From Collinsella sp. An268 (GTDB lineage: Bacteria > Actinomycetota > Coriobacteriia > Coriobacteriales > Coriobacteriaceae), in NCBI RefSeq assembly GCF_002159765.1, contig NZ_NFJH01000007.1:1-64000 (forward strand): 64,000 nucleotides of DNA, read 5' to 3'. Below the pieces are notes generated by a model. It did no database searches. It was not told where the DNA came from and saw nothing but the letters and a program-made list of their open reading frames with translations. Each line of letters opens with the position of its first letter. Position 1 is the first letter of the stretch. This document shows, one piece after another, positions 9,754-38,337 of the stretch. The position numbers and the translations under genes are program-made.

Positions 9754-9805
9754 CCCCATCTTTTTAACTGCATCTCTCTCAGCTCGGCCCCTCCGCTGCC
9801 CGGCC

Positions 9806-10048
9806 GTACATTAGCGCGTACATTGCCGCGTGTTTTGCCCGGGTGGCCGTACATTTTCTGCGGCAAAGAACCCGTCAATGTGCGCGCGAGTGTACGGTGC
9901 GTGAAACCGCAGGTAGCGGCCTGTACATTTCCCCTCGCAATGTGCCCTGGGCCCCGCCTCGGCCGTCGGAGCGCGTTTTGCCGTACATTGCGGCCGATAT
10001 TGCACCGCGGCCCCGGCAAAAGGGCCTGCAATGTACGCGGTAATGTGC
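9806..10048. repeat. cluster of nine GTACATT/GCACATT motifs
   Basis: Six GTACATT (or AATGTAC) copies lie at 9806, 9818, 9849, 9923, 9983 and 10030, and three GCACATT (or AATGTGC) copies at 9877, 9939 and 10042. Several share a longer GGCCGTACATT context. Copies to the left read mostly forward and those at the right end reverse, and the outer parts resemble each other as imperfect inverted repeats. The region (9754-10154, about 400 bases) has no gene and lies between two convergent genes, so these are not ordinary promoter sites. Function unknown. Confidence 0.7.
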
Positions 10049-23843: not shown

Positions 23844-24065
23844 CGCTCGGTGTCGTCGCGTGGCGTGCTGTGTGACGCCCCACGCCCCGTCTCCGTTTCT
23901 GCGGTTTGACGCGTCTCGCGCTCCATCGCTTGCAACCTGTCACAAACGATCCGTTCGATGTCATAAACAGTAACCTCCCCTCCCCTGGTCGCGGATACCC
24001 CGCCGATACAATGGATGGGTATCGTGACCAGCCATATCTCTGTGGCTGGCTGGGAAGGGGATACC

Positions 24066-27000
24066 ATGAACCGAACCGGGTTGATCCGTGCGGCGCTCGC
24101 CGTGCTTCTGATGGGGGTCGCGGTGTGCGCACCGGCGGCCGTGTGGGCCGCGCAGCAGGCAGACGGCCAAGCGAGCTTGCAGGAAAGCGCTGCTCGGACC
24201 GACGCGCAAGAGGGCGCCACCCAAGCAGGGGAGCAAGACTCGAGCGCGGCGGTCCTGCAGGATGACCAGTCGTCCGACTTCGTGATTGACGAGAACGGCG
24301 TGCTCACCGCGTACGTGGGCCCGGGCGGCGACGTGGTCATTCCCGATGGTGTGACCAAGATTGAAAGCTGGGCGTTTCAAGATCAGACCAGTGTTACCTC
24401 GGTGGTCATTCCCGATTCCGTGAAGGAAATTGGGCTTGGGGCGTTCTCGGGCTGTTCTTCGATATCGAGCGTTGACCTAGGGCATGGTGTTGAGTACCTT
24501 GGCACGGCCGCGTTTGAAAACCTGAACGTGCAAAAGTTGGTCATTCCCTCGTCAATTACGAAAGGCGGGGGCGTCGGTGGCTTTTTGGGCGCTACGATCG
24601 ATACGGTCATCTTTGAAGAGGGGACAGAGGTCATCCCTCACTTCATGTTTGGTAATGGTAGTTCCATCGGGAATGTTGTCATCCCTGACGGCGTGACCAA
24701 GATCGGGTATGACGCATTTAGTTATGTTGCCGGACTAGAGGAGATTGCTCTCCCGGATTCCGTTACCATCATCGAGCATAATGCCTTTGCGCATATGCCC
24801 GACCTGCGCTCCGTCCACATCTCAGCAGGTCTTGGTTTGGATGAGGCGTCGGTAGCAAACCCCTTTGAGGGTAGTTTCGGCATCGAGTCCGTTACGTTTG
24901 GTGGGGGTATCGCATCGCTTCCCGATACACTCTTCGATGGTGCGGGTATTACTGAGCTGCATATTCCCGATACCGTTACTTCCATCGGCTCTCAGGTCTT
25001 CACGTGTTCGAATGACGACGAGACAGGAGCGGGCATCGGAGATCTGTACCTTCCCGCATCTGTTGCGCTCATTGATGAGTCGAACACACTCGACGGCGTG
25101 ACGGTCCACTGTGTGAAAAACTCGGTTGCCTGCCAGTTTGCCGAGCCGCGGGGATACACGTGTGTTCATGATATGACGCACGAGCATGAGTATGGGGACT
25201 GGACGACGGTCAAGGAGCCTACGTGCACCGAGCCTGGTGCGCAGCAGCGCGTTTGCTGGTGTGAGGCGATCGACGAGCGCGCCTACCCCGAGGCACTCGG
25301 GCATGACTTCTCGGGCGAGGTCGTGGTCGACACCGAGCCGACCTGCACGGAGCCCGGATTGGGGCATAGGGTGTGCACGCGTTGCCAGGTGGCGTCTGCC
25401 GCCGAGGAGATCGCGCCTCTCGGCCATGCCTACGCCGATGAGTGGACCGTCGACACCGAGCCCACCTGCACCACGCCCGGCGAGCGTTCGCACCATTGCG
25501 AGCGCTGCGGAGACCGCGCCGATGTGGAGGCCGTGGATGCGCTTGGCCACGACTACGGCGACTATGTGATCGACACCGCGCCCACCTGCACCGAGCCCGG
25601 CGAGCGCTCTCGCTACTGCAGTCGCTGCAACGACCGCACCGATGTGGAGACGGTCGACGCGCTCGGTCACAGCTACGGCGACTGGATCGTCGACACGCCG
25701 GCAACCTACTTTGCCGCCGGCGCGCACCACCGCGTCTGCGACCGTTGCGCTGTGCGCGAGGACGGCGTGATCGCCCAGCTCGAGCCTGACTTTGAGGCGC
25801 ATCCCGACTACACCTTCGCCACCTTCCGGGTGGTTAACGCTCAGACGCTCGAGCCGCTCACGGGCGCGACCATCACCCTCACGCCCACGAGCGGCTCGGC
25901 CGAGTCCCAAGAGCTCACAACCGAGGACCTCGGCCGCGCGGCCCTCTTTGCCCCGGCGGGGACGTATGACATCACGGTCGAGTACAGTCAGTTCCAGGTG
26001 CGCGGGTTTACGTACACCTTTGCGGTGGGCGAGGTCGAGGTGCCCGACATCGGCCTTTCGCCTGAGGCGCTCGTCCAGGGTGAGCTCACCGGTCGCGAGA
26101 TGACGCGAGAGGAGATCGAGGCGGCGGGCATCGACACCTCCGACCCCGACAACAACCACGTCTACCAATATGGTGGGGCAATCCGCTTCAATCAGGGTAT
26201 CGAGGGCATCGACCTCGGGTTTGATACCTACGTCTACAAAAACGAGAAAGGCGAGACCGTCGGTGCCGTCTTTGACGGCGAGCGCGTCGAGCAGGACGAG
26301 GACGGCAACGATAGGCCCATGACCATCACCGTGAGCGACCCGGAGGAAGAGGCGCCCACCAAGGTCACCCGTATCAACGAGTACCTCTATCTCGTGACGC
26401 AGGGCGAGGTCAAGTGGCTGAAGGAGATGTTCCACGTCCAGCTCATTGTGGTCAACATGTCCAACACCGACACACTTGCCGGTTGCACCGCCGCGCTTAA
26501 CCTGCCGAGCGGTCTTACGCTCGCCAGCCTGACCACAGGTGAGCAGAGGGCGGAGCAGGAGGTCGGCACCGTCGGCCACCTCGAGACCAAGACGGTCGAC
26601 TGGTACGTGCGCGGCGACAGCGCGGGCGACTTTACGCTCGAGGCCTCGCTCACGGGTATGTTCCAAGAGCTCGGTGCGCCCTTTGCCTATACCTTCCGCA
26701 GCGCCGAGCCGCTGCACGTCTATGCCGGCAGCGACATGCGGCTCACCATTCACCTGTCGGACGCGGCCTACTACAACGAGCCCTACACCGTGCTCTACGA
26801 GCTCAAGAACGTCTCGGACCGCACTATCTACAATGTCTCGCACAGGATCAAAGAGCTCTCGCAGTTTGAGGGGCAGTACACGCACCTCACGAGCGACGAG
26901 GCGGTTGAGGACGCGCAAGACTGGACCGAACTCACCACCGAGGAGCTCGGGAAAGGTGCAACGATAGAGGCTGACGAACTCAAGCCCGGCGAGCGGCTGA

Positions 27001-29582
27001 TGGTCGCGCTCACCACCAACGTCATCTGGAAGTCGTCCATGGTGCAGGCGGGTGAGAACGCCGAGATCACGCACAAGATCATGGTGGCGATCGGCGCCAA
27101 CAAGGGCCTTGGGGCGGGCATCGATACGATGCTGCAGATCATGGCCAACATAGACATCCGCTATTACCTGGAAGATACTGTGATCTCCACGCTCGAGGGC
27201 TCGACGGCGGAGATTCCCACCGACTTTGAGATTGATCATCACGCAGGGCCGTCGCTCACGGACGTGGCGGTCAGCACCGCGATCGAGCAGGTGTGGGACA
27301 AGGGGTCGAGCTTTGGACTCAAGTACCTGATGGGCGGCATGTACGACACCCTTTCGTGGGTCAAGCGGACCTACAAGGGCATCACGAGCATCTTTAGCGT
27401 CGAGACGGCCGAGGAGAGCCAGCGCTGCATAGCGTGGGTCGAGACGCAGGAGGGCTCCAACGTGATCCAGGTGAGCATCGACGGCCTCGAGCCCGACGAG
27501 AACGGGCGCTACACCTTTACGGGTGATACCGAGATTTCGGTCGATGCGCTCAACACCGGCACGGCCTACCTCATGGTGCAGGACGAGGACGGCAATGTGA
27601 CGGCGCAACGGTTTGAAGTGGCGGAGACCTTCCCCGGGCAGGAGCACATCTTAAGCTCCATCCAGGACCCCGTGGGCCTGAACGACCTGCTGATGCCGTC
27701 GGGCAGCGTCTTTACCGAGGACTACTACGAGCTCCTCGACGAGATGGGCTGGGAACTCTTCTACGGTGACCGGGAGCTCAAGGACGGCGACGTGATTCCC
27801 ACCGGGGCGGTGCTACGCGACCCGGTGAGCGGGGCCGAGGTAAACATCTTTGTACCGGGCGATGTGACCGAGGACGGCGCGGTCGACGTGGCCGACGCGG
27901 CGGCGATGGCGGCGGCGCAAGCAGGCGGCGGCGTGTCGCGCGCGCGGGTGGCGGCGACGGCCGGGGCGGCGCGGGATGCCGGCGATGGCCTCGATGCCAT
28001 GCAGCAGCTCGCGGGCGATCTGAACGGCGACGACCTCGTTGACTACCAAGATGCGCTCGAGCTTATGGCGTACCTGACCAACGGGGGCATCAACACGCGT
28101 CTGACTGATGCCGAGGCATCTGCCGGCGGCGATGAGGGCACAGTGCTTACGGCGACGCGCGTCGAGGACGCGGAGGGACGGCCCATGGTGGCGCTCGACC
28201 TGTCCGGTCTTCTTGAGGGCGCGACGGCCGTGCAGGTAGACCTGCTCGATCCCGCGGCTGCGGGGCTCGAGGGACTTACCGTGGAGCTCGCAGGGACCGG
28301 GGACGCCGATTTCTCTGGTGCCGCGGTGAGCGACGCGGGCGACTACGTCCGTGCGATCGCTGCGGATGCGGACGGTGCGCTCGAAACGTCGGGTGCGGTG
28401 CTGCGCCTCTCGTGCGATGCGGTGCCGGAGGCCGGCTCGGTAACGCTGCCTGCGCGGGTGGTTGTGCAGACGGCGTCGGGCGCAACGGTCGCTGCGGTGC
28501 GCGCGGTGACGCTCGACTTTACCGAGCCGGAGCCCGAGCCGGTGCCGGGTGAGACGACGCTTGCGGTCGACCTCCCGGCCGAAGGCTTCACTTATACGGG
28601 TGAGCCGCTCGACCTGTCCGGGCGAGTGACGGCCGCGTATGGGGACGAGGATGCTACAGCGAAGGTCATGTGGTCGTGGCGCACAGCCGATGCGGCCGAT
28701 GATGCGGCGTGGCAGGCGGGCCTTCCGAGCGACGCGGGCGCGTACGAGCTCCGGGCCGAGCTGCCGGCGCGTCCGGCTGAGGACGGCGTGTACTTCGATG
28801 GGACCTCATGGGAGGGCGAGACCGTGATTGCGGCCGCGCCCACGGAGGCGCCCGAAGGTGTCACCGGCATTGCGGAGTCCGTGGTCGGGTCGGGCGGTAC
28901 GCTCAGCGATTTGCCCGCGGGCGCCGAGTGGCGGCTCAAGGGTACGGATACCTGGACGGCCGCGACCGGCGATGCCGTTTCGGTGGCGCCCGGCGTGTAC
29001 GAAGTGCGCCTCGCGGCGTCGGCCGATGGAAACCATGCGGCGTCCGCGATCGTCGAGGTGCGCGTGGCGTCCTTTGCAGACGAGCACGGCAGCATCACCT
29101 TCCCCACGGGCTCGACCGAGGACGATGCCGGTCTCGTAGTGCTTCCCGCAGAGGGCGGCGCGGTGGTGTTCCCCGACGGCTCGTCGGTCACCCTGCCCGG
29201 GGACTCGCGGGTGGATAGCGAGAACCAGCTTGCCGAGCTGCCCGGGGGCGCGACCGTGGCGCCCGATGGCAACGGGAGCTTTACGGTGACGCGGCCGGAC
29301 GGTACCGAGGAGACGGTTTCGAGTGGCGCAGAGCTTGCCGAAGACGGATCGGTGGTACAGACGGGCGAGCCGGATCCGGATGAGCCCACCGTGCCCGGTG
29401 GCTCGACGGAAGACGGGGACGGCAGCCAGACCGGTGGCGACGGCGGCCAGACAGGGGGCAATCAGGCCGGCGGCACCGCGCAGGGTATGCCCGCCACGGG
29501 CGATCCCGCCTTTGCGTGGTGCGCTGCGAGCGCGCTCGGTGGCGTCGCCGTACTCGTCGCGGCGCGGCGCCGGCGGCGGTAA
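24066..29582 (+). CDS. giant sortase-anchored surface protein: LRR, Cys-rich repeats, dockerin
   Basis: 1838 residues. A signal peptide (about 1-33, ending VWAAQ) is followed by a BspA-type leucine-rich region (about 70-365, units such as VVIPDSVKEIGLGAFSGC). Next come four tandem Cys-rich units (about 375-540, each with PTCTEPG and a Cys-x-x-Cys), then a degenerate fifth. A long beta-rich region with Ig-like segments follows. A dockerin-like pair of calcium loops (GDVTEDGAVDVADAAA and GDLNGDDLVDYQDALE) lies near 1268-1340. The C-terminus has a Gly/Thr-rich spacer, a MPATGD sortase motif near 1810, a hydrophobic helix and a RRRR tail. It is therefore exported and fixed to the cell wall. Adhesion or carbohydrate scaffolding is plausible. 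The LRR part is visibly less GC-rich than the rest, which hints at a separate origin of that module. Confidence 0.88.
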   Translation: MNRTGLIRAALAVLLMGVAVCAPAAVWAAQQADGQASLQESAARTDAQEGATQAGEQDSSAAVLQDDQSSDFVIDENGVLTAYVGPGGDVVIPDGVTKIESWAFQDQTSVTSVVIPDSVKEIGLGAFSGCSSISSVDLGHGVEYLGTAAFENLNVQKLVIPSSITKGGGVGGFLGATIDTVIFEEGTEVIPHFMFGNGSSIGNVVIPDGVTKIGYDAFSYVAGLEEIALPDSVTIIEHNAFAHMPDLRSVHISAGLGLDEASVANPFEGSFGIESVTFGGGIASLPDTLFDGAGITELHIPDTVTSIGSQVFTCSNDDETGAGIGDLYLPASVALIDESNTLDGVTVHCVKNSVACQFAEPRGYTCVHDMTHEHEYGDWTTVKEPTCTEPGAQQRVCWCEAIDERAYPEALGHDFSGEVVVDTEPTCTEPGLGHRVCTRCQVASAAEEIAPLGHAYADEWTVDTEPTCTTPGERSHHCERCGDRADVEAVDALGHDYGDYVIDTAPTCTEPGERSRYCSRCNDRTDVETVDALGHSYGDWIVDTPATYFAAGAHHRVCDRCAVREDGVIAQLEPDFEAHPDYTFATFRVVNAQTLEPLTGATITLTPTSGSAESQELTTEDLGRAALFAPAGTYDITVEYSQFQVRGFTYTFAVGEVEVPDIGLSPEALVQGELTGREMTREEIEAAGIDTSDPDNNHVYQYGGAIRFNQGIEGIDLGFDTYVYKNEKGETVGAVFDGERVEQDEDGNDRPMTITVSDPEEEAPTKVTRINEYLYLVTQGEVKWLKEMFHVQLIVVNMSNTDTLAGCTAALNLPSGLTLASLTTGEQRAEQEVGTVGHLETKTVDWYVRGDSAGDFTLEASLTGMFQELGAPFAYTFRSAEPLHVYAGSDMRLTIHLSDAAYYNEPYTVLYELKNVSDRTIYNVSHRIKELSQFEGQYTHLTSDEAVEDAQDWTELTTEELGKGATIEADELKPGERLMVALTTNVIWKSSMVQAGENAEITHKIMVAIGANKGLGAGIDTMLQIMANIDIRYYLEDTVISTLEGSTAEIPTDFEIDHHAGPSLTDVAVSTAIEQVWDKGSSFGLKYLMGGMYDTLSWVKRTYKGITSIFSVETAEESQRCIAWVETQEGSNVIQVSIDGLEPDENGRYTFTGDTEISVDALNTGTAYLMVQDEDGNVTAQRFEVAETFPGQEHILSSIQDPVGLNDLLMPSGSVFTEDYYELLDEMGWELFYGDRELKDGDVIPTGAVLRDPVSGAEVNIFVPGDVTEDGAVDVADAAAMAAAQAGGGVSRARVAATAGAARDAGDGLDAMQQLAGDLNGDDLVDYQDALELMAYLTNGGINTRLTDAEASAGGDEGTVLTATRVEDAEGRPMVALDLSGLLEGATAVQVDLLDPAAAGLEGLTVELAGTGDADFSGAAVSDAGDYVRAIAADADGALETSGAVLRLSCDAVPEAGSVTLPARVVVQTASGATVAAVRAVTLDFTEPEPEPVPGETTLAVDLPAEGFTYTGEPLDLSGRVTAAYGDEDATAKVMWSWRTADAADDAAWQAGLPSDAGAYELRAELPARPAEDGVYFDGTSWEGETVIAAAPTEAPEGVTGIAESVVGSGGTLSDLPAGAEWRLKGTDTWTAATGDAVSVAPGVYEVRLAASADGNHAASAIVEVRVASFADEHGSITFPTGSTEDDAGLVVLPAEGGAVVFPDGSSVTLPGDSRVDSENQLAELPGGATVAPDGNGSFTVTRPDGTEETVSSGAELAEDGSVVQTGEPDPDEPTVPGGSTEDGDGSQTGGDGGQTGGNQAGGTAQGMPATGDPAFAWCAASALGGVAVLVAARRRRR

Positions 29583-31402: not shown

Positions 31403-33091
31403 ATGTCAGCTACGCCGAGGGGATTTCGCGATATCCTGCCCGAGGAGGCGCTGGTGCGCGAGGATATCGCCGATACCGTACGCCGCGTATTGCGCAAGGC
31501 GGGTTACCTGCCGGTCGAAACGCCGCTTCTGGAGGACCGTGCGGCGCTCGAAGGGCGGGGCCGCGCCGCAGAGACGCCATTTCAGCTGTTTGATGACGAT
31601 GGGCGCCTCATGGTGGTGCGCCCCGACAACACGCGCTCGGTCGCGCGTCTCGTGACGGCGCGCCTGCGCGAGGCCGCCTTGCCGCTGCGTTTGCGCTACG
31701 AGGCGCCCGTGGTGCGAGGGCGGGTGCGCTTGGCGGGCGGCGCGCGCCAGTTCACCCAGCTCGGCTTCGAGCTCATCGGCGCCGGGGGGGCGGTGGGCGA
31801 TGCCGAGGCCGTGCGGCTCGTCCTCACCGCTCTCCAGGCGCTCGACATTTCCGACGTGCGCCTGGTGTGCGGGAGCGTGCGCCCCTTTACGGCCTTGCTG
31901 GCGCACGCCAACGATGCGGAGCTCGCCCGTGACGCGCTCGCCCTCGTGCACGCCAACAACTTGGTCGACCTGGACGAGCGCGTGGCCGAGGCGGGGCTTG
32001 CACCGGAGCTTGCGCGGGCCATCTCGCAGGTGCCGCGCTTGGCGGGCGGCGTCGAGGTGCTCGACGAGGTCGACGCCCTGAGTGCGGCGGCGGGCGCAGG
32101 CACGGGGTCCACAGACGAGCTGCGCGCGCTTCTGGACGAGCTCGCACGGACGGGGGTAGACGCTGCGCCCCTCACGTTCGACTTTTCCGTCATGAGCTCG
32201 TTTGCGTATTACACGGGTCTTGTGCTCGAGGTCTATGCGGCGGGGCTTGCCGACCCCGTGGGGTCGGGAGGTCGGTACGACGCCACGTTCGAGGGTGCGT
32301 TTGCAGCCGCGCCGCACGTGCCCGCCGCTGGCTTCGCCTTCTCGCTCGAGCAACTGGCGGCGGCGCGCGCCGCGTCGCGGAGACGCTGCTCGGCATCGGG
32401 CGGTGCCTGCGACGAGGACCCCTTGCGCATAGCGGTGCCCAAGGGGTCGCTGTTTGCGGACACGCTTGCGGCTCTTGAGGCGGCGGGGCTCTCGGTGGAC
32501 GAGCTGCGCGATCCGGGCAGGCGCCTTATCGTGCGCGGCGCCGACTGCGCGCCGGGAGCGCCCGGCGGGCACGTGGGGCCGGTGGAGTATGTGATCGTGC
32601 GCGCCTCCGATGCACCCGCCTTTGTAGCCTGCGGAGGCGCCGCCTGCGGTCTGTGCGGACGCGACTCGCTCATCGAGGCGGGTCTCGACCAGCTCGAGCT
32701 GCTCGATATGGGCTACGGTGCCTGCCGGTTCATCGAGGCGGAGAGCGCCGACCGTGCCGGCGAGGCAGAGCGCGCCTACGCGCAGCGGGGGAGTCTCCGC
32801 GTCGCCACCAAGTACCCCCGCATCGCCGCGGCGTGGTACGAGGGGCGCGGCATCACGGCGGATATCATCGCCTTGCACGGCAATATCGAGCTCGGTCCCA
32901 TCGTGGGGCTCTCGGATCGCATTGTCGACATCACGGCTACGGGGACGACGCTCAGGGAGAACAACCTGGTCGTGACGGGCGAGGTCATGGCCTGCACGGC
33001 GCGCTTCTTCGCCAATCCGGGTCCCGCCCGGCTCGATCCGCGCGTGCGTGCGCTCGCCGCGCGCCTGTCGGCCGTCGCGGCGGCGCGCTAA
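31403..33091 (+). CDS. HisZ-HisG fusion: ATP phosphoribosyltransferase with regulatory domain
   Basis: 562 residues combining two proteins that are normally separate. Residues about 1-335 are HisZ-like (TPRGFRDILPEEA, RPDNTRSVARLVTARL, FTQLGFELIG, GSGGRYDATFEGAF), the histidyl-tRNA-synthetase-like regulator. Residues about 350-562 are short-form HisG (LRIAVPKGSLFADTL, LDMGYGACRF, LRVATKYPRIAAAWYEG, the PRPP loop DITATGTTLRENNL). Together they catalyse and regulate the first step of histidine synthesis. A linker with CSASGGACDED and extra cysteines (CGGAACGLCGRD) is unusual. GAGGAGG precedes the ATG. No other his gene is adjacent. Confidence 0.93.
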   Translation: MSATPRGFRDILPEEALVREDIADTVRRVLRKAGYLPVETPLLEDRAALEGRGRAAETPFQLFDDDGRLMVVRPDNTRSVARLVTARLREAALPLRLRYEAPVVRGRVRLAGGARQFTQLGFELIGAGGAVGDAEAVRLVLTALQALDISDVRLVCGSVRPFTALLAHANDAELARDALALVHANNLVDLDERVAEAGLAPELARAISQVPRLAGGVEVLDEVDALSAAAGAGTGSTDELRALLDELARTGVDAAPLTFDFSVMSSFAYYTGLVLEVYAAGLADPVGSGGRYDATFEGAFAAAPHVPAAGFAFSLEQLAAARAASRRRCSASGGACDEDPLRIAVPKGSLFADTLAALEAAGLSVDELRDPGRRLIVRGADCAPGAPGGHVGPVEYVIVRASDAPAFVACGGAACGLCGRDSLIEAGLDQLELLDMGYGACRFIEAESADRAGEAERAYAQRGSLRVATKYPRIAAAWYEGRGITADIIALHGNIELGPIVGLSDRIVDITATGTTLRENNLVVTGEVMACTARFFANPGPARLDPRVRALAARLSAVAAAR

Positions 33092-33466: not shown

Positions 33467-33524
33467 GGCGCTGCGCCTGCACCTGCGGCCCTCTTACGGA
33501 CCCATCGCCGGTCTCCCTATGGTC

Positions 33525-35756
33525 TTATCTCAGCCCGAGCGCGCGAGCGGTATCGAGCCGCTGCTGCAGTCGCTCGTGCAACGTGGCGATATCAAAAGCG
33601 CCCTCGTCGACGGTGACGCGTGCAATGGTGCCGTCGCGCATGGCTGCGATCACTGCCGAGCCATCCGGGCTGAACGCCAGCGCCCGCACCTCACTTGCCT
33701 GCTCGCGCACCGTCGAGCCGGGACAGAGGTCGCTCTCGCGCAGGAACGCCACCGTGCCGTCGGAAAACCCAGCGGCAAAGACCGAGCCATCGGGCGAGAC
33801 GGCGAGTGCCCGGGCCTGCTGTGCCTGCGTAGGTGTCCAGAACGCAAGGTAGCCTGTCGTGAGTCGCCACGATCCATCGACATTCGTCAACGCAAGCGAG
33901 CCGTTCTCCGCAAAGCCATCGCCCACGCTCACGGCATGCGTGGCACCCACGGCGAGCGCCCGCGGTGAGGCCCCCGGCGTCGGAGAGGTGCTCGAAATCC
34001 CGTCGATGCCGACCGCCTCGGTCTTTGCCGGTACGATCGAGCCGGGTTCCACCACCGAGAGTCCGCCACCGCCCAAGCTGCCGATAAACACGCGGCCCTC
34101 CACGTCAACGGCGAGCGCGGAAACAGAAACGCCCTCGATACGCCGCTCCTCCTCTCCGCTGGCGAGATCGAGCACCACGGTCTGCGCCCCATCGCTCAGC
34201 GCCATGATCCCCGCCTCAGGGGAGGTGGCGACGTAGAGTGGTGCAAGGTCCTCCGGCACCGCAACGGGCTGTGCCGTGTGCGCGGTAAGATCTACCAGGC
34301 AGAGCAGCGGTGCTCCCTCAGTATCGGCACCCACTACGTAGACCTCGTTTGCCGAGATGCCCGGTGCGATGTCTGTTGCCAGCGTCAGGGTATCCACCAG
34401 GCACGTCTCGGTACCGAGCAGCTCGCCCGTCGTTGCATCCACTACGGCAAGCGAGCCATCGCGCGCAAGGAAGACCGCCTGCGCGCCGCCCACGGCGGAC
34501 ACCCCGTCCATGAACCAGAGCCCCGTGTGTGCGGTCACCGTCGTGCGGGGATGCGGCTCCCACACCGCCGCAGAACCGTCGGGCGCGCGCATAGCGAGAC
34601 GCTCGCCGTCTGCGCTCCATGCGAGCACGCAGCCTTTTGAAGTCGGTGCCCCCGTGAGTTCTGTGAAGCACGTGCCGAGCTTGGGGTCGAAGAGCTCTAC
34701 ACCGCGCGCGGTCACCACCGCAAGCGTGCGCCCGTCGGGTGAGGCGACTATGTCATCGCACGGTGCGTCGAGCGCGACCGTCACCGCGGGGGCTGCGGAG
34801 ACGGCGCCGGCGGCATCCGTCCGCCTCACGTAAAGGTTTCTCCTGTTGGGGGAGCTCGTGGCGTACCAGCCCGCGCCGCTCGCCTCGGCACGCCCCGCCT
34901 CGGGGAAGGCGAACGCCTCCGCATCCACGGTCGCCCCGCTCGCGGTGGGTGCCCCACCTCCCGCCATGTAAGCCACCGGCACGCACCGCTCGAGCGCCTG
35001 CTGGGCGTCGACGAGTGTCGTGTATCCGTCCGACGATGCGTCTTCGGCAAGCGCCGCCTCGGCACCGGCGTAGGGGCTAGCGGCAAGTGCGGCCTCAAAC
35101 GTCGCGCGCTGCGCAAGCAGTGCGCCGTTGGCCCGATCGGCTTCGTCGACGCGCGCCGTCTGATAGGCGCCGAGCGTCACGAACGCCCCGCTTGTGATGA
35201 CGCCCACCGCAAGCGTGGCAAGCGCTAAGCGCACGATCCGCCGCCAACGCCGCGACTGGCGCACAAAGTCCTCCGCCAACTCCGTCACCGTGTCCGCGCG
35301 GGATGTCAGAGGTACAAAACGGCGCAGGTTCTGGCGACGGGCAAGGTCGCGCACCCGCCGTCCGCCCTCCGCCCATTGCGCAGCTTGTACCTCAAGGTCG
35401 GCCACCACGTCGCCCTCCGGCGGGCGCGCGGCAAACCGACCGGCTACAAAAGCGGCTGCCGCTTCGAGATCGAGCGCCTCGTCGTGCGCTGAGAGCGTCA
35501 CGATGGGCCGGTGGTAGTAGCGCGCCTGGTCGGCCTCGCTTCGGCACGGTCCGGAGGCAAACCAATCCTCCGACTGAAAGAGCACGACCATGGCCGCCCC
35601 GCGAATCGCCGCCGTCACGCGGGAATCCCACGCGGTGCCAAAACGCAGTTGCTCGGTGTCGCGCCAGACCTCAATGCTGCGTGCCTCGAGAAGCGCTTGC
35701 AGGCGGGTGACCACCTCGGCTTGACGGCGCGGGTACGAGATAAAGAGATACGCCAT
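33525..35756 (-). CDS. TIR / transmembrane / WD40-like propeller protein A
   Basis: 743 residues. An N-terminal TIR fold (about 1-130; YLFISYPRR box 1, WRDTEQLRFG, then GPCRSEADQARYY with Glu-74 in the place of the catalytic Glu of NAD-cleaving TIRs). A linker (130-170) and one transmembrane helix (about 174-197) lead to an extracellular part with a short helical stretch and a roughly seven-bladed propeller (units such as DDIVASPDGRTLAVVTARG and VRALAFSPDGSAVIAAMRDG). So the TIR faces the cytoplasm and the propeller the outside. It begins eight bases after the stop of a paralogous gene. Function unknown: sensing with TIR output, or a scaffold. Confidence 0.8.
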   Translation of the reverse strand: MAYLFISYPRRQAEVVTRLQALLEARSIEVWRDTEQLRFGTAWDSRVTAAIRGAAMVVLFQSEDWFASGPCRSEADQARYYHRPIVTLSAHDEALDLEAAAAFVAGRFAARPPEGDVVADLEVQAAQWAEGGRRVRDLARRQNLRRFVPLTSRADTVTELAEDFVRQSRRWRRIVRLALATLAVGVITSGAFVTLGAYQTARVDEADRANGALLAQRATFEAALAASPYAGAEAALAEDASSDGYTTLVDAQQALERCVPVAYMAGGGAPTASGATVDAEAFAFPEAGRAEASGAGWYATSSPNRRNLYVRRTDAAGAVSAAPAVTVALDAPCDDIVASPDGRTLAVVTARGVELFDPKLGTCFTELTGAPTSKGCVLAWSADGERLAMRAPDGSAAVWEPHPRTTVTAHTGLWFMDGVSAVGGAQAVFLARDGSLAVVDATTGELLGTETCLVDTLTLATDIAPGISANEVYVVGADTEGAPLLCLVDLTAHTAQPVAVPEDLAPLYVATSPEAGIMALSDGAQTVVLDLASGEEERRIEGVSVSALAVDVEGRVFIGSLGGGGLSVVEPGSIVPAKTEAVGIDGISSTSPTPGASPRALAVGATHAVSVGDGFAENGSLALTNVDGSWRLTTGYLAFWTPTQAQQARALAVSPDGSVFAAGFSDGTVAFLRESDLCPGSTVREQASEVRALAFSPDGSAVIAAMRDGTIARVTVDEGAFDIATLHERLQQRLDTARALGLR

Positions 35757-35764
35757 GGTGACCC

Positions 35765-38125
35765 CTACCGTTCCGCCGGCGCCGCGGTTGCGCACATCAT
35801 TCCCAATTGCTGGCGAACGTCTTTGGGAAACGTCTGCCACTGTGCGAGCGGCCAACGCTTGGGCTGTCGCGCGCGCAGCAGCGAGACGAGGCCCTCCATG
35901 CTCGTACAGCCGCTGTTAGACCAGGGATGCCACCAGCGACCGGCGGCCTCCACTATAAGTCGCGCGCCGTCGCTGGAGAACCCCACCTGCTCCACGCCAT
36001 CCGCCGTCGGCACCTGCCAAGCGCGGCACAGGTACGCCTGTCCGTTTGACGCGAGGTCGAACACAAGCACGTGTCCCGTGTCAAAACCGAGGGCGACCGC
36101 ACCTCCATACGGAGCTATGCACACACTGGTTGCCGTGCCGAGGTCGCCGTACGGAGCAAGTGGTATATCGAGCGTTGTGGGCTGGGTGGCTGACACGGGG
36201 GAATCTCCCTCGACTGCCTCCGGGGCCGCGTCAGATGCGCTTCCAGACGCACCCAAGGCAAATTCTGGTTGCGCGATGCGCAGCGTCTCGGCGTCCGCGA
36301 GCTCCGCTGTTGCGCTTTCTGCCGCATAGGTGGTTTTCGCCGAGGTGACGCCAGAGACCGTGGCGATGTCGGGTGCAATCGGCAGGAGCGACCAGATGCT
36401 CGTAACAAAGCCGTTTCCGCAGGCCACGACGCCGGTGTCCGAGATGGAAAGATAGCAGACGCCCGCCAGGTCGCGCGCGATGGTCTCGAGTACCGTGCCC
36501 GTGGCGAGGTCGACCACCTGCACGCCGTCTTGCTCGGTGGCCACCACCAGCACGTTGCCGTCCGACGCGAGGGCAGACGGCGCGTCGCGCGTGGTGAATC
36601 CCACGGGCTCGAGCGCGCTGGCGGCAGAGAGGCGCGAGACGGTACCGTTCGAACATACGAGCGCCTCGCCTGCGGGTAGGATGGTTCCCGTGAGTATCTC
36701 GGCAGCGGGAAGCGGCGCCTGCGCGACGACTTCGCCCATGGTAAGGTCGATGAGCTGCACCGTTTCCCCGGCGGCGGTTTCTTCGGCCGTTGTCGCGGTG
36801 CCCGCCGCTTCCGCTGAGGTCGCACGGAGCGCCCGAAGGCCCGCCGCGGCGCGGGTGAGCGCCAAGACGTCCGTCCCGGCGAGGTCGATCTCGCGCGCTC
36901 GCGCGCCATTTTCGTATACCGCAATCGCGCTTGCGGTTTGTACGGCGATCTGGCTGCCGTCCTCGCTGCACGCTATGGCGACGCTATCGGTGCACGCCGT
37001 GTCAAGCGCTGTGCGCTCCCCGGTTTTAAGGTCGATCATGGCCACGCCATCGGCATCGGCCACCACGGCGGCTGCGCCGTCGGCCGTCACGTCGAAGACG
37101 AACGCGTCTGAGGACGACACACGGATAGTACTGACGGGTTCGAACGCGAGGATGTTCCACTGTTGGAGCGTCCCGCCATCCGCGCGCACCCAATACTGCG
37201 CCCCCGTTTGCGCAAAGACGCCCTCGCCCTGCCAGCCGCCGGCGTTGAAGTCTTCCGTTCCCAAGATGCCCATCGCCCACGGGCGCTCAAGCCCCGCGGT
37301 GAGGGCGTGCACCTGCTCTGGCTCGACCCCGCCCGCATCCCTCATGGCGCAATACGTTTGGAAGGAAAAGAACGCTGGATCAGTCTCGAGACGCATGCTG
37401 TAGGCCGACTGCGCGGATTGAACCGCATGCTCGACGTGCGCTGCTACGACGCCGCGCACGATGACGACCGTCGCGACCGCCGCTGCAATCGCCGCGACGA
37501 GCACGAGGCTGTGCCGGCGGGTGCGCTTCCGCTGCCGCCGCGCAAACGTGTGGGAGGCATGCGCGTACCGGACCATGGCGTCGGACGGGCGCTGAAAGGA
37601 GTCGTCGCGCATCTCGTCGATGAGGGCACAGGCTTGCTTTGCCTGGTTGACGCTTTGCATGAGAAAGCTGTCGTCGCGCCCGCAGGTTTCCCAGCGCGCC
37701 GTACGGGCGGCGAGGTCGTCGTAGGCGGGGTAGAGCCAGACGTGCGAATGGAAGATCTCCTGCCAGATGCTCGGATGGTTCCGAGCGTCCGCCCAGTGCC
37801 GCTCGCGGATAGGGGAGCCGGGTGCACCGCACCGCTCCGGGGTAATGCCGTCGAGCCGGACGGGAATGGTCGCCGGCATGTGCTCGGCGAGGGCGTTGGC
37901 ACGTTCGAGAAAACCGGGCGCGGCGGCAGCCTCCTCGGAGAGGAGCACCACGCAGAGCGTGATGTCACACGGGGTGTCGCAAGGCTGGTTAGAAGTCGGG
38001 GCGAGGTTCTCGCGTCGCACCTCGTACCCCGCACGACGCGCCGCGACGGCAGCCGTCGCAGCGGCTTCCTCGTCCGCATCGCACGCACAGAGCAACACAC
38101 CATGCTCCCGCAGACGGGCATCCAT
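35765..38125 (-). CDS. TIR-like / transmembrane / propeller protein B
   Basis: 786 residues with the same plan as the downstream gene. An N-terminal domain (about 1-145) has alternating strands and helices (HGVLLCACDADEE, then ITLCVVLLSEEAAAAPGFLERA) and looks like a diverged TIR domain; the box-1 pattern and the catalytic-Glu region are not clear, so it may be enzymatically dead. A basic stretch (RRQRKRTRRH) precedes a transmembrane helix (about 205-227). The extracellular part is propeller-like (ACSEDGSQIAVQTASAIAVYENG; GTVLETIARDLAGVCYLSIS) with a low-complexity Ala/Thr insertion. ATG preferred to the TTG four codons earlier. First gene of the pair; they probably act together. Confidence 0.75.
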   Translation of the reverse strand: MDARLREHGVLLCACDADEEAAATAAVAARRAGYEVRRENLAPTSNQPCDTPCDITLCVVLLSEEAAAAPGFLERANALAEHMPATIPVRLDGITPERCGAPGSPIRERHWADARNHPSIWQEIFHSHVWLYPAYDDLAARTARWETCGRDDSFLMQSVNQAKQACALIDEMRDDSFQRPSDAMVRYAHASHTFARRQRKRTRRHSLVLVAAIAAAVATVVIVRGVVAAHVEHAVQSAQSAYSMRLETDPAFFSFQTYCAMRDAGGVEPEQVHALTAGLERPWAMGILGTEDFNAGGWQGEGVFAQTGAQYWVRADGGTLQQWNILAFEPVSTIRVSSSDAFVFDVTADGAAAVVADADGVAMIDLKTGERTALDTACTDSVAIACSEDGSQIAVQTASAIAVYENGARAREIDLAGTDVLALTRAAAGLRALRATSAEAAGTATTAEETAAGETVQLIDLTMGEVVAQAPLPAAEILTGTILPAGEALVCSNGTVSRLSAASALEPVGFTTRDAPSALASDGNVLVVATEQDGVQVVDLATGTVLETIARDLAGVCYLSISDTGVVACGNGFVTSIWSLLPIAPDIATVSGVTSAKTTYAAESATAELADAETLRIAQPEFALGASGSASDAAPEAVEGDSPVSATQPTTLDIPLAPYGDLGTATSVCIAPYGGAVALGFDTGHVLVFDLASNGQAYLCRAWQVPTADGVEQVGFSSDGARLIVEAAGRWWHPWSNSGCTSMEGLVSLLRARQPKRWPLAQWQTFPKDVRQQLGMMCATAAPAER

Positions 38126-38337
38126 AGGCTCCCCCAACCCTCGTGGCCGTTGCGACCATCATAGCGCACCGCCGTACGGAGAGCTCGGGTCCGTCGCCGT
38201 GGGGAAGGCGCGTCCGCTGAGAGCGCCTCGCTCCCTTTGGTGGGGCGGGGGCACTGGCTTGACAACCTGCGCTTCTCAAGATAGTCTGAATACGGACTAA
38301 AATACCGTTCTCGTATCCCCTCAGGAGGATTGATACC

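Follow-up and report, generated by a model that had tools for sequence, protein, structure and literature searches.

The 64,000-nucleotide stretch of DNA from the gut bacterium Collinsella sp. An268 analysed here (the window) carries two adjacent genes on its minus strand, which we call A and B. They are spaced by eight bases, with B upstream of A and transcribed first; the first-pass annotation had described two such frames, and they were confirmed at 33525–35756 and 35765–38125. The features of the locus are as follows.

33525..35756, minus strand: gene A, 743 aa, with TIR domain, linker, membrane helix, stalk and WD40 propeller (reading frame, Pfam, AlphaFold, VIA-align)
35444..35756, minus strand: TIR domain of A, residues about 1–104 (PF13676, 49.2 bits; profile matches to NAD-cleaving TIRs of known structure)
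35535..35537, minus strand: Glu-74 codon of A; the residue aligns with the catalytic Glu of NAD-cleaving TIRs and is invariant in all A homologues examined (alignments)
35241..35423, minus strand: cytoplasmic linker of A, residues 112–172, common to B and to single-gene TIR-TM-WD40 proteins (alignments)
35172..35228, minus strand: predicted membrane helix of A, residues 177–195 (hydropathy and charge bias, 11 orthologues)
33603..34901, minus strand: WD40-type propeller region of A, residues about 286–718 (Pfam, AlphaFold, VIA-align)
35765..38125, minus strand: gene B, 786 aa, with Glu-less TIR-like domain, linker, membrane helix, stalk and propeller (reading frame, AlphaFold, VIA-align, profile comparison)
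37760..38125, minus strand: TIR-like domain of B, residues 1–122, without conserved catalytic Glu (hhalign against TIRs, alignment)
37526..37759, minus strand: cytoplasmic linker of B, residues 123–200 (alignments)
37457..37513, minus strand: predicted membrane helix of B, residues 205–223 (hydropathy and charge bias in orthologues)
35921..37240, minus strand: propeller region of B, residues about 296–735 (AlphaFold, VIA-align)
33467..38258, no strand: two-gene unit as delimited by comparison with the empty HisZG-HPr-YitT site in four other species, boundaries approximate (site comparison)

The distribution of differences over codon positions shows that both frames are constrained as coding sequence: relative to G006, the sister species, with an amino-acid identity of 94–95%, the differences at the three positions are 27/16/54 for A and 22/16/52 for B. 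Since full-length orthologues of both are also present in ten other genomes, we regard A and B as real genes. A scan for promoters and terminators at the pair gave results no better than those from shuffled sequences. The earlier proposal that the two genes are paralogues is supported across the linker, membrane helix and propeller, which align between A and B in an hhalign comparison (P 1.4e-7).

Domain structure of the two proteins

The TIR domain of A belongs to PF13676 (49.2 bits with a cut-off of 28, and 52.6 bits in the genome search), and Pfam also recognises WD40 repeats in the same protein. While phmmer with the single A-TIR sequence returned nothing useful from the PDB, a profile of A-type TIRs retrieved the solved TIRs 3h16, the CRISPR-associated TIR Cat1, TIR-SAVED, AbTIR and SARM1. 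In the profile alignment with these structures Glu-74, which had been singled out as a catalytic-type residue, falls on the Glu of the Cat1 C--E motif, the catalytic position in NAD-cleaving TIRs. All 13 A homologues have this residue, which is also the usual one in its column among about 50 other TIRs. Moreover, it is one of five positions, together with Cys-71, Trp-31, Asp-33 and Trp-43, that are invariant in a set of ten TIRs including one from a single-gene relative in a different genus of the phylum. On the basis of Glu-74 and of the family to which the domain belongs, we infer that A carries an intact-looking, NAD-cleaving TIR as its effector.

The N-terminus of B was harder to place: Pfam and family models gave no TIR family match up to an E value of 1, the domain stays below the PF13676 cut-off, and phmmer with its single sequence found nothing useful in the PDB. 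However, a profile of 14 B homologues compared with a TIR set that excludes A reached an hhalign score of 44.5 (P 9e-8), against at most 17.7 for 200 column-shuffled TIR profiles and 21.3 for receiver domains, which represent another alpha/beta fold. Subsets of the B profile taken alone score lower (34.4 and 22.2), so that the kinship with TIRs rests on the joint profile. These comparisons support a distant TIR relative at the N-terminus of B. The Glu of the catalytic position is not conserved in the 14 homologues, whereas the TIR-like and linker features are kept throughout, in agreement with the first impression of B as a diverged partner.

Structure prediction, which the first-pass annotation had proposed as a check, bore out the WD40 propeller in each protein; for the N-terminal fold it was less telling, as residues 1–130 of B lie mostly under pLDDT 50, a region of low confidence. 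In VIA-align the AlphaFold model of A reaches Z 28.9 over residues 403–717 (277–287 residues aligned, rmsd 2.7–2.8, best matches WD40 chains), and that of B reaches Z 23.2 over residues 282–576 (273 aligned, rmsd 3.4). The model of A has about 40 strands between residues 262 and 715; seven blades would need fewer. The Foldseek and VIA-align lists for both models are filled by WD40 chains and are therefore uninformative on the TIR parts. With regard to topology, the residues ahead of the membrane helix carry positive charge in almost every orthologue of A and of B, and this charge bias suggests that the TIR parts face the cytoplasm and the propellers the outside.

Further TIR genes were seen in the course of the analysis. 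The window genome has a second TIR domain above the Pfam cut-off, in a 617-aa frame (G000:C10:5702-6022; L002, L031). Genome G138 (L069:5446-9750) has two adjacent TIR genes of a different design, one encoding a TIR with a membrane helix (552 aa) and the other a TIR with a long C-terminal part that ends in a CPCGSGKKFKACHG motif (881 aa).

Distribution and conservation of the gene pair

Of the 397 genomes of the order that were searched, 11 encode A in full length, and exactly these 11 also encode full-length B. The genes are adjacent and in the same order in 11 of 11, with B directly upstream of A, across two families and at several sites. The paired arrangement for which a survey of related genomes had been suggested was thus found wherever either gene occurs in full length, and the association of an intact-looking TIR with a Glu-less one, each on a predicted single-pass propeller protein, is well supported and kept in other genomes. 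Divergent pairs were also detected in three more genomes from other genera (G184, G343 and G038), where an A-like gene follows right behind a B-like gene; in G038 the latter is split across two frames. A profile of two of the divergent B proteins recovers the window B at E 2.3e-6. A weak B match of 25 residues in G223 was taken as chance.

Wherever they are resolved, the A tree and the B tree agree in topology, with G152 as a long branch. The pair is missing from three of the nine genomes of the window genus. Searches with A gave no match in plasmid and phage collections, viral contigs held no relative of the A profile, and a genome-contig collection searched with A yielded a single locus, that of the sister species G006. 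In G048 (L029, near 9804-9809) gene B contains one in-frame TGA where its orthologues have Cys, so that the gene may be broken or recoded, or the sequence in error.

Mobility and genomic neighbourhood

In the window genome (G000) and in G006, the pair has HisZ-HisG/HPr on one side and YitT on the other. These genes adjoin each other without the pair in four other species of the genus, where homology resumes close to both gene ends. In these four (G002, G003, G005 and G007) the pair is found beside MetQ instead, a site that is empty in G001, G004 and G008. G000 (C22, L171:3327-6713) and G006 (C45, L172) carry a metallophosphoesterase/Laminin-G surface-protein gene at the MetQ site instead of the pair, and this spot is a possible insertion hotspot. 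In a second genus, its neighbours are PurL at one site, a DUF512 protein gene and Der at another, and DUF4062/DUF3825 and TPR genes at a third. For two of the chromosomal sites an empty counterpart was identified, and no gene for a recombinase could be recognised next to the pair. As read from these site comparisons, the two genes alone move between sites as a unit. Furthermore, identity between G000 and G003 is only about 41% for A, compared with 73% for HisZG and 93% for MetQ, indicating that the pair evolves faster, or has been exchanged more, than its genome.

The first-pass annotation had raised nearness to defence genes as a point to check, and this was not borne out: the window neighbours of the pair are housekeeping, metabolic or ordinary accessory genes without a defence island within the window. 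PADLOC reported no complete system; A matched only in part, through its TIR or repeats, and B not at all. Among the neighbour genes at several sites we recognised no gene for a secreted partner, a toxin or an immunity protein. Genes of the DUF4062/DUF3825 and TPR kind are often seen in conflict systems; those that adjoin the pair in G048 (L029:11984-17236) had no PADLOC match. Two other genes of the window may be mentioned. At 31406-33088, a HisZ-like domain (a histidyl-tRNA synthetase paralogue) and HisG are fused in one frame, a fusion kept in all 15 genomes examined. Near the pair, at 24015-29579, lies the gene for an 1855-aa protein with BspA-type leucine-rich repeats, which is likely a surface protein.

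Matched tracts in the membrane and stalk segments

Comparison of the pair between the genomes of two sister species, G153 and G154 (L064:4971-9434 against L065), revealed a divergent tract in each gene. In A, residues 109–256, comprising the end of the linker, the helix and the stalk, are 51% identical compared with 95% elsewhere; in B, residues 189–261 (helix and stalk) are 48% identical compared with 98% elsewhere. Within the tracts, identity at third codon positions falls to about 30–65%, with no changes in length. We ruled out the simple picture of two nearly identical genomes with two dips, as identity outside the block is often 60–80% in wider windows. Judged by these identities, the pair and its near neighbours are a recently shared, that is exchanged, block. 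Since the near-identity of G153 and G154 is confined to this block, comparison with the outgroup G048 provides the better evidence for the tracts. In G154, the tracts are as similar to G048 as the rest of the genes (72 vs 71 and 70 vs 69), whereas in G153 they are less similar than the rest (52 vs 71 and 47 vs 70). Therefore, G153 is the carrier of the divergent, foreign-looking segments, in both genes and at an equivalent place. No donor of its divergent membrane tract was found in 140 genomes of its family. A weaker pattern of the same kind between G003 and G007/G002 (A 181–220, B 241–280) is accompanied by dips outside the pair as well.

If they are due neither to chance nor to an assembly fault, the matched tracts suggest that A and B must match, or meet, in the membrane. 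A more far-reaching reading is that membrane and stalk segments, matched between the two chains and exchangeable, are the means by which an active and a dead TIR chain find each other. Such allele-specific pairing in the membrane would determine what the alarm responds to, and A and B would exchange their specificity module jointly. We consider this rather unlikely; if true, it would describe a bacterial two-chain TIR receptor.

Comparison with known TIR systems

The first-pass annotation knew of no described system with exactly this plan, a claim that agrees with the papers searched as regards the pair and goes too far for the single protein. In a sample of 248 Actinomycetota genomes searched for related architectures, two single genes that were read with their surroundings, L134 (G568) and L135 (G556), encode a TIR, a linker of the same type, one membrane helix and WD40-like repeats. 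Their N-terminal TIR has the Glu, as in A, and the linker of L134 is of the same juxtamembrane kind (RAEEWDHGDRDASLLLRGSDLRQAERW...PTPLQAEYVLCSR). Unlike the A/B locus, both are one-gene arrangements, and the open frames listed around them include no recognisable second gene of TIR type. Long proteins of ~1,400 aa from other Actinomycetota (L117-L120, L124 and L125) likewise follow the A/B plan in having an N-terminal TIR, a membrane helix near residue 690 and WD40-like repeats; they differ in being single genes with a large middle domain that A and B do not have and that presumably resembles STAND NTPases. By these domain assignments, the single-protein TIR-TM-WD40 architecture is not new and occurs elsewhere in Actinomycetota, and the distinctive feature of the locus is the conserved A/B pair. 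We know of no report of such a conserved pair with a Glu-less partner. No paper on a membrane pair of TIR and pseudo-TIR was found in the literature searched, in which subscription papers are poorly covered, so that this is weak evidence of absence.

A shares the catalytic Glu column with the NAD-cleaving TIR effectors Cat1, TIR-SAVED, Thoeris and TIR-APAZ/Ago, all of which act on intracellular triggers. Cat1, TIR-SAVED and Thoeris respond to nucleotide signals inside the cell. TIR-APAZ/Ago is triggered inside the cell by guide and target nucleic acid (PMC10474274). In contrast, A is predicted to be membrane-anchored and to carry an external propeller. Its match to the Thoeris ThcB4 model of NCBIfam is restricted to the TIR part (25.8 bits with a cut-off of 220), and none of the anti-phage systems in PADLOC matched A or B over the full length. 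Animal Toll-like receptors resemble A and B in plan only, with an external sensing domain, one membrane helix and an internal TIR; they have leucine-rich repeats instead of a propeller and their TIR is at the opposite end of the chain, and we are aware of no sign of common descent between the two plans.

Discussion

Our comparative analysis revealed a conserved pair of membrane proteins in which an intact-looking TIR is accompanied by a Glu-less relative. From the domain order, the shared linker, the Glu-74 column, the Glu-less B, the pairing, the congruent trees and the movement as a unit, we infer, with a probability of roughly 45%, that A and B form a heteromeric, single-pass surface receptor in which the NADase A is restrained or templated by B; contact, topology, NADase activity, the part played by B, the cue and what follows from it are all predictions. 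In such a receptor, the outer propellers, together with the stalks, would sense a cue at the level of the envelope, for which contact with a phage or with a second cell is the most plausible candidate, and the paired membrane helices would carry the signal inward. In the resting state the Glu-less TIR of B would hold apart or scaffold the TIR of A, which upon triggering would assemble and either cleave NAD or make an NAD-derived signal, so that the cell might be arrested or killed. A contact between the segments of A and B would fit the tracts of G153, which are divergent at equivalent places in both proteins. On the other hand, matched replacement is clear in this one genome only, the window has no defence island and no complete PADLOC system, and the N-terminal fold of B is predicted with low confidence. 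A role of the pair in defence is plausible, since the unit is patchy, mobile and TIR-bearing.

The main rival explanation is that B acts as a co-activator and not as a restraint, its Glu-less TIR supplying a neighbouring surface or template without which A would be inactive. The active sites of TIR NADases often form between two protomers, and composite sites are established for other TIRs. Such a role would also fit the conservation of the TIR-like and linker features in all B homologues and the finding that full-length A never occurs without B in the 397 genomes. However, the TIR-like domain of B is strongly diverged and short, and we regard this alternative as somewhat unlikely.

It is quite improbable that A and B are a housekeeping envelope sensor which reports the state of the cell wall or nutrients and uses its TIRs as assembly modules in place of NADases. 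Metabolic genes do adjoin the pair in the window, and the PADLOC matches to the TIR are only partial. An accessory effector nevertheless fits better, because the pair is patchy (11 of 397 genomes), is lacking in three of the nine genomes of its genus and changes its chromosomal site, while Glu-74 is invariant. The predicted surface propellers and the matched membrane and stalk alleles, which differ between sister species, could also point to kin or contact recognition between gut bacteria rather than to an action against phages, although with no secreted partner, toxin or immunity gene recognised beside the pair we think this very unlikely. TIR and WD40-like families expand and shuffle in bacteria, and two such genes might be neighbours without a joint function, yet adjacency and order held in 11 of 11 genomes, over two families and several sites, together with congruent trees of A and B make mere coincidence highly implausible.

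To our knowledge, the bacterial NAD-cleaving TIR effectors described so far are mostly soluble and triggered from inside the cell. If the receptor reading is true, a conserved two-chain membrane TIR with predicted external sensors, one chain of which is apparently dead, would represent a bacterial receptor that triggers a TIR from outside. The A/B pair would also be a compact model for direct tests of regulation by a pseudo-TIR partner.
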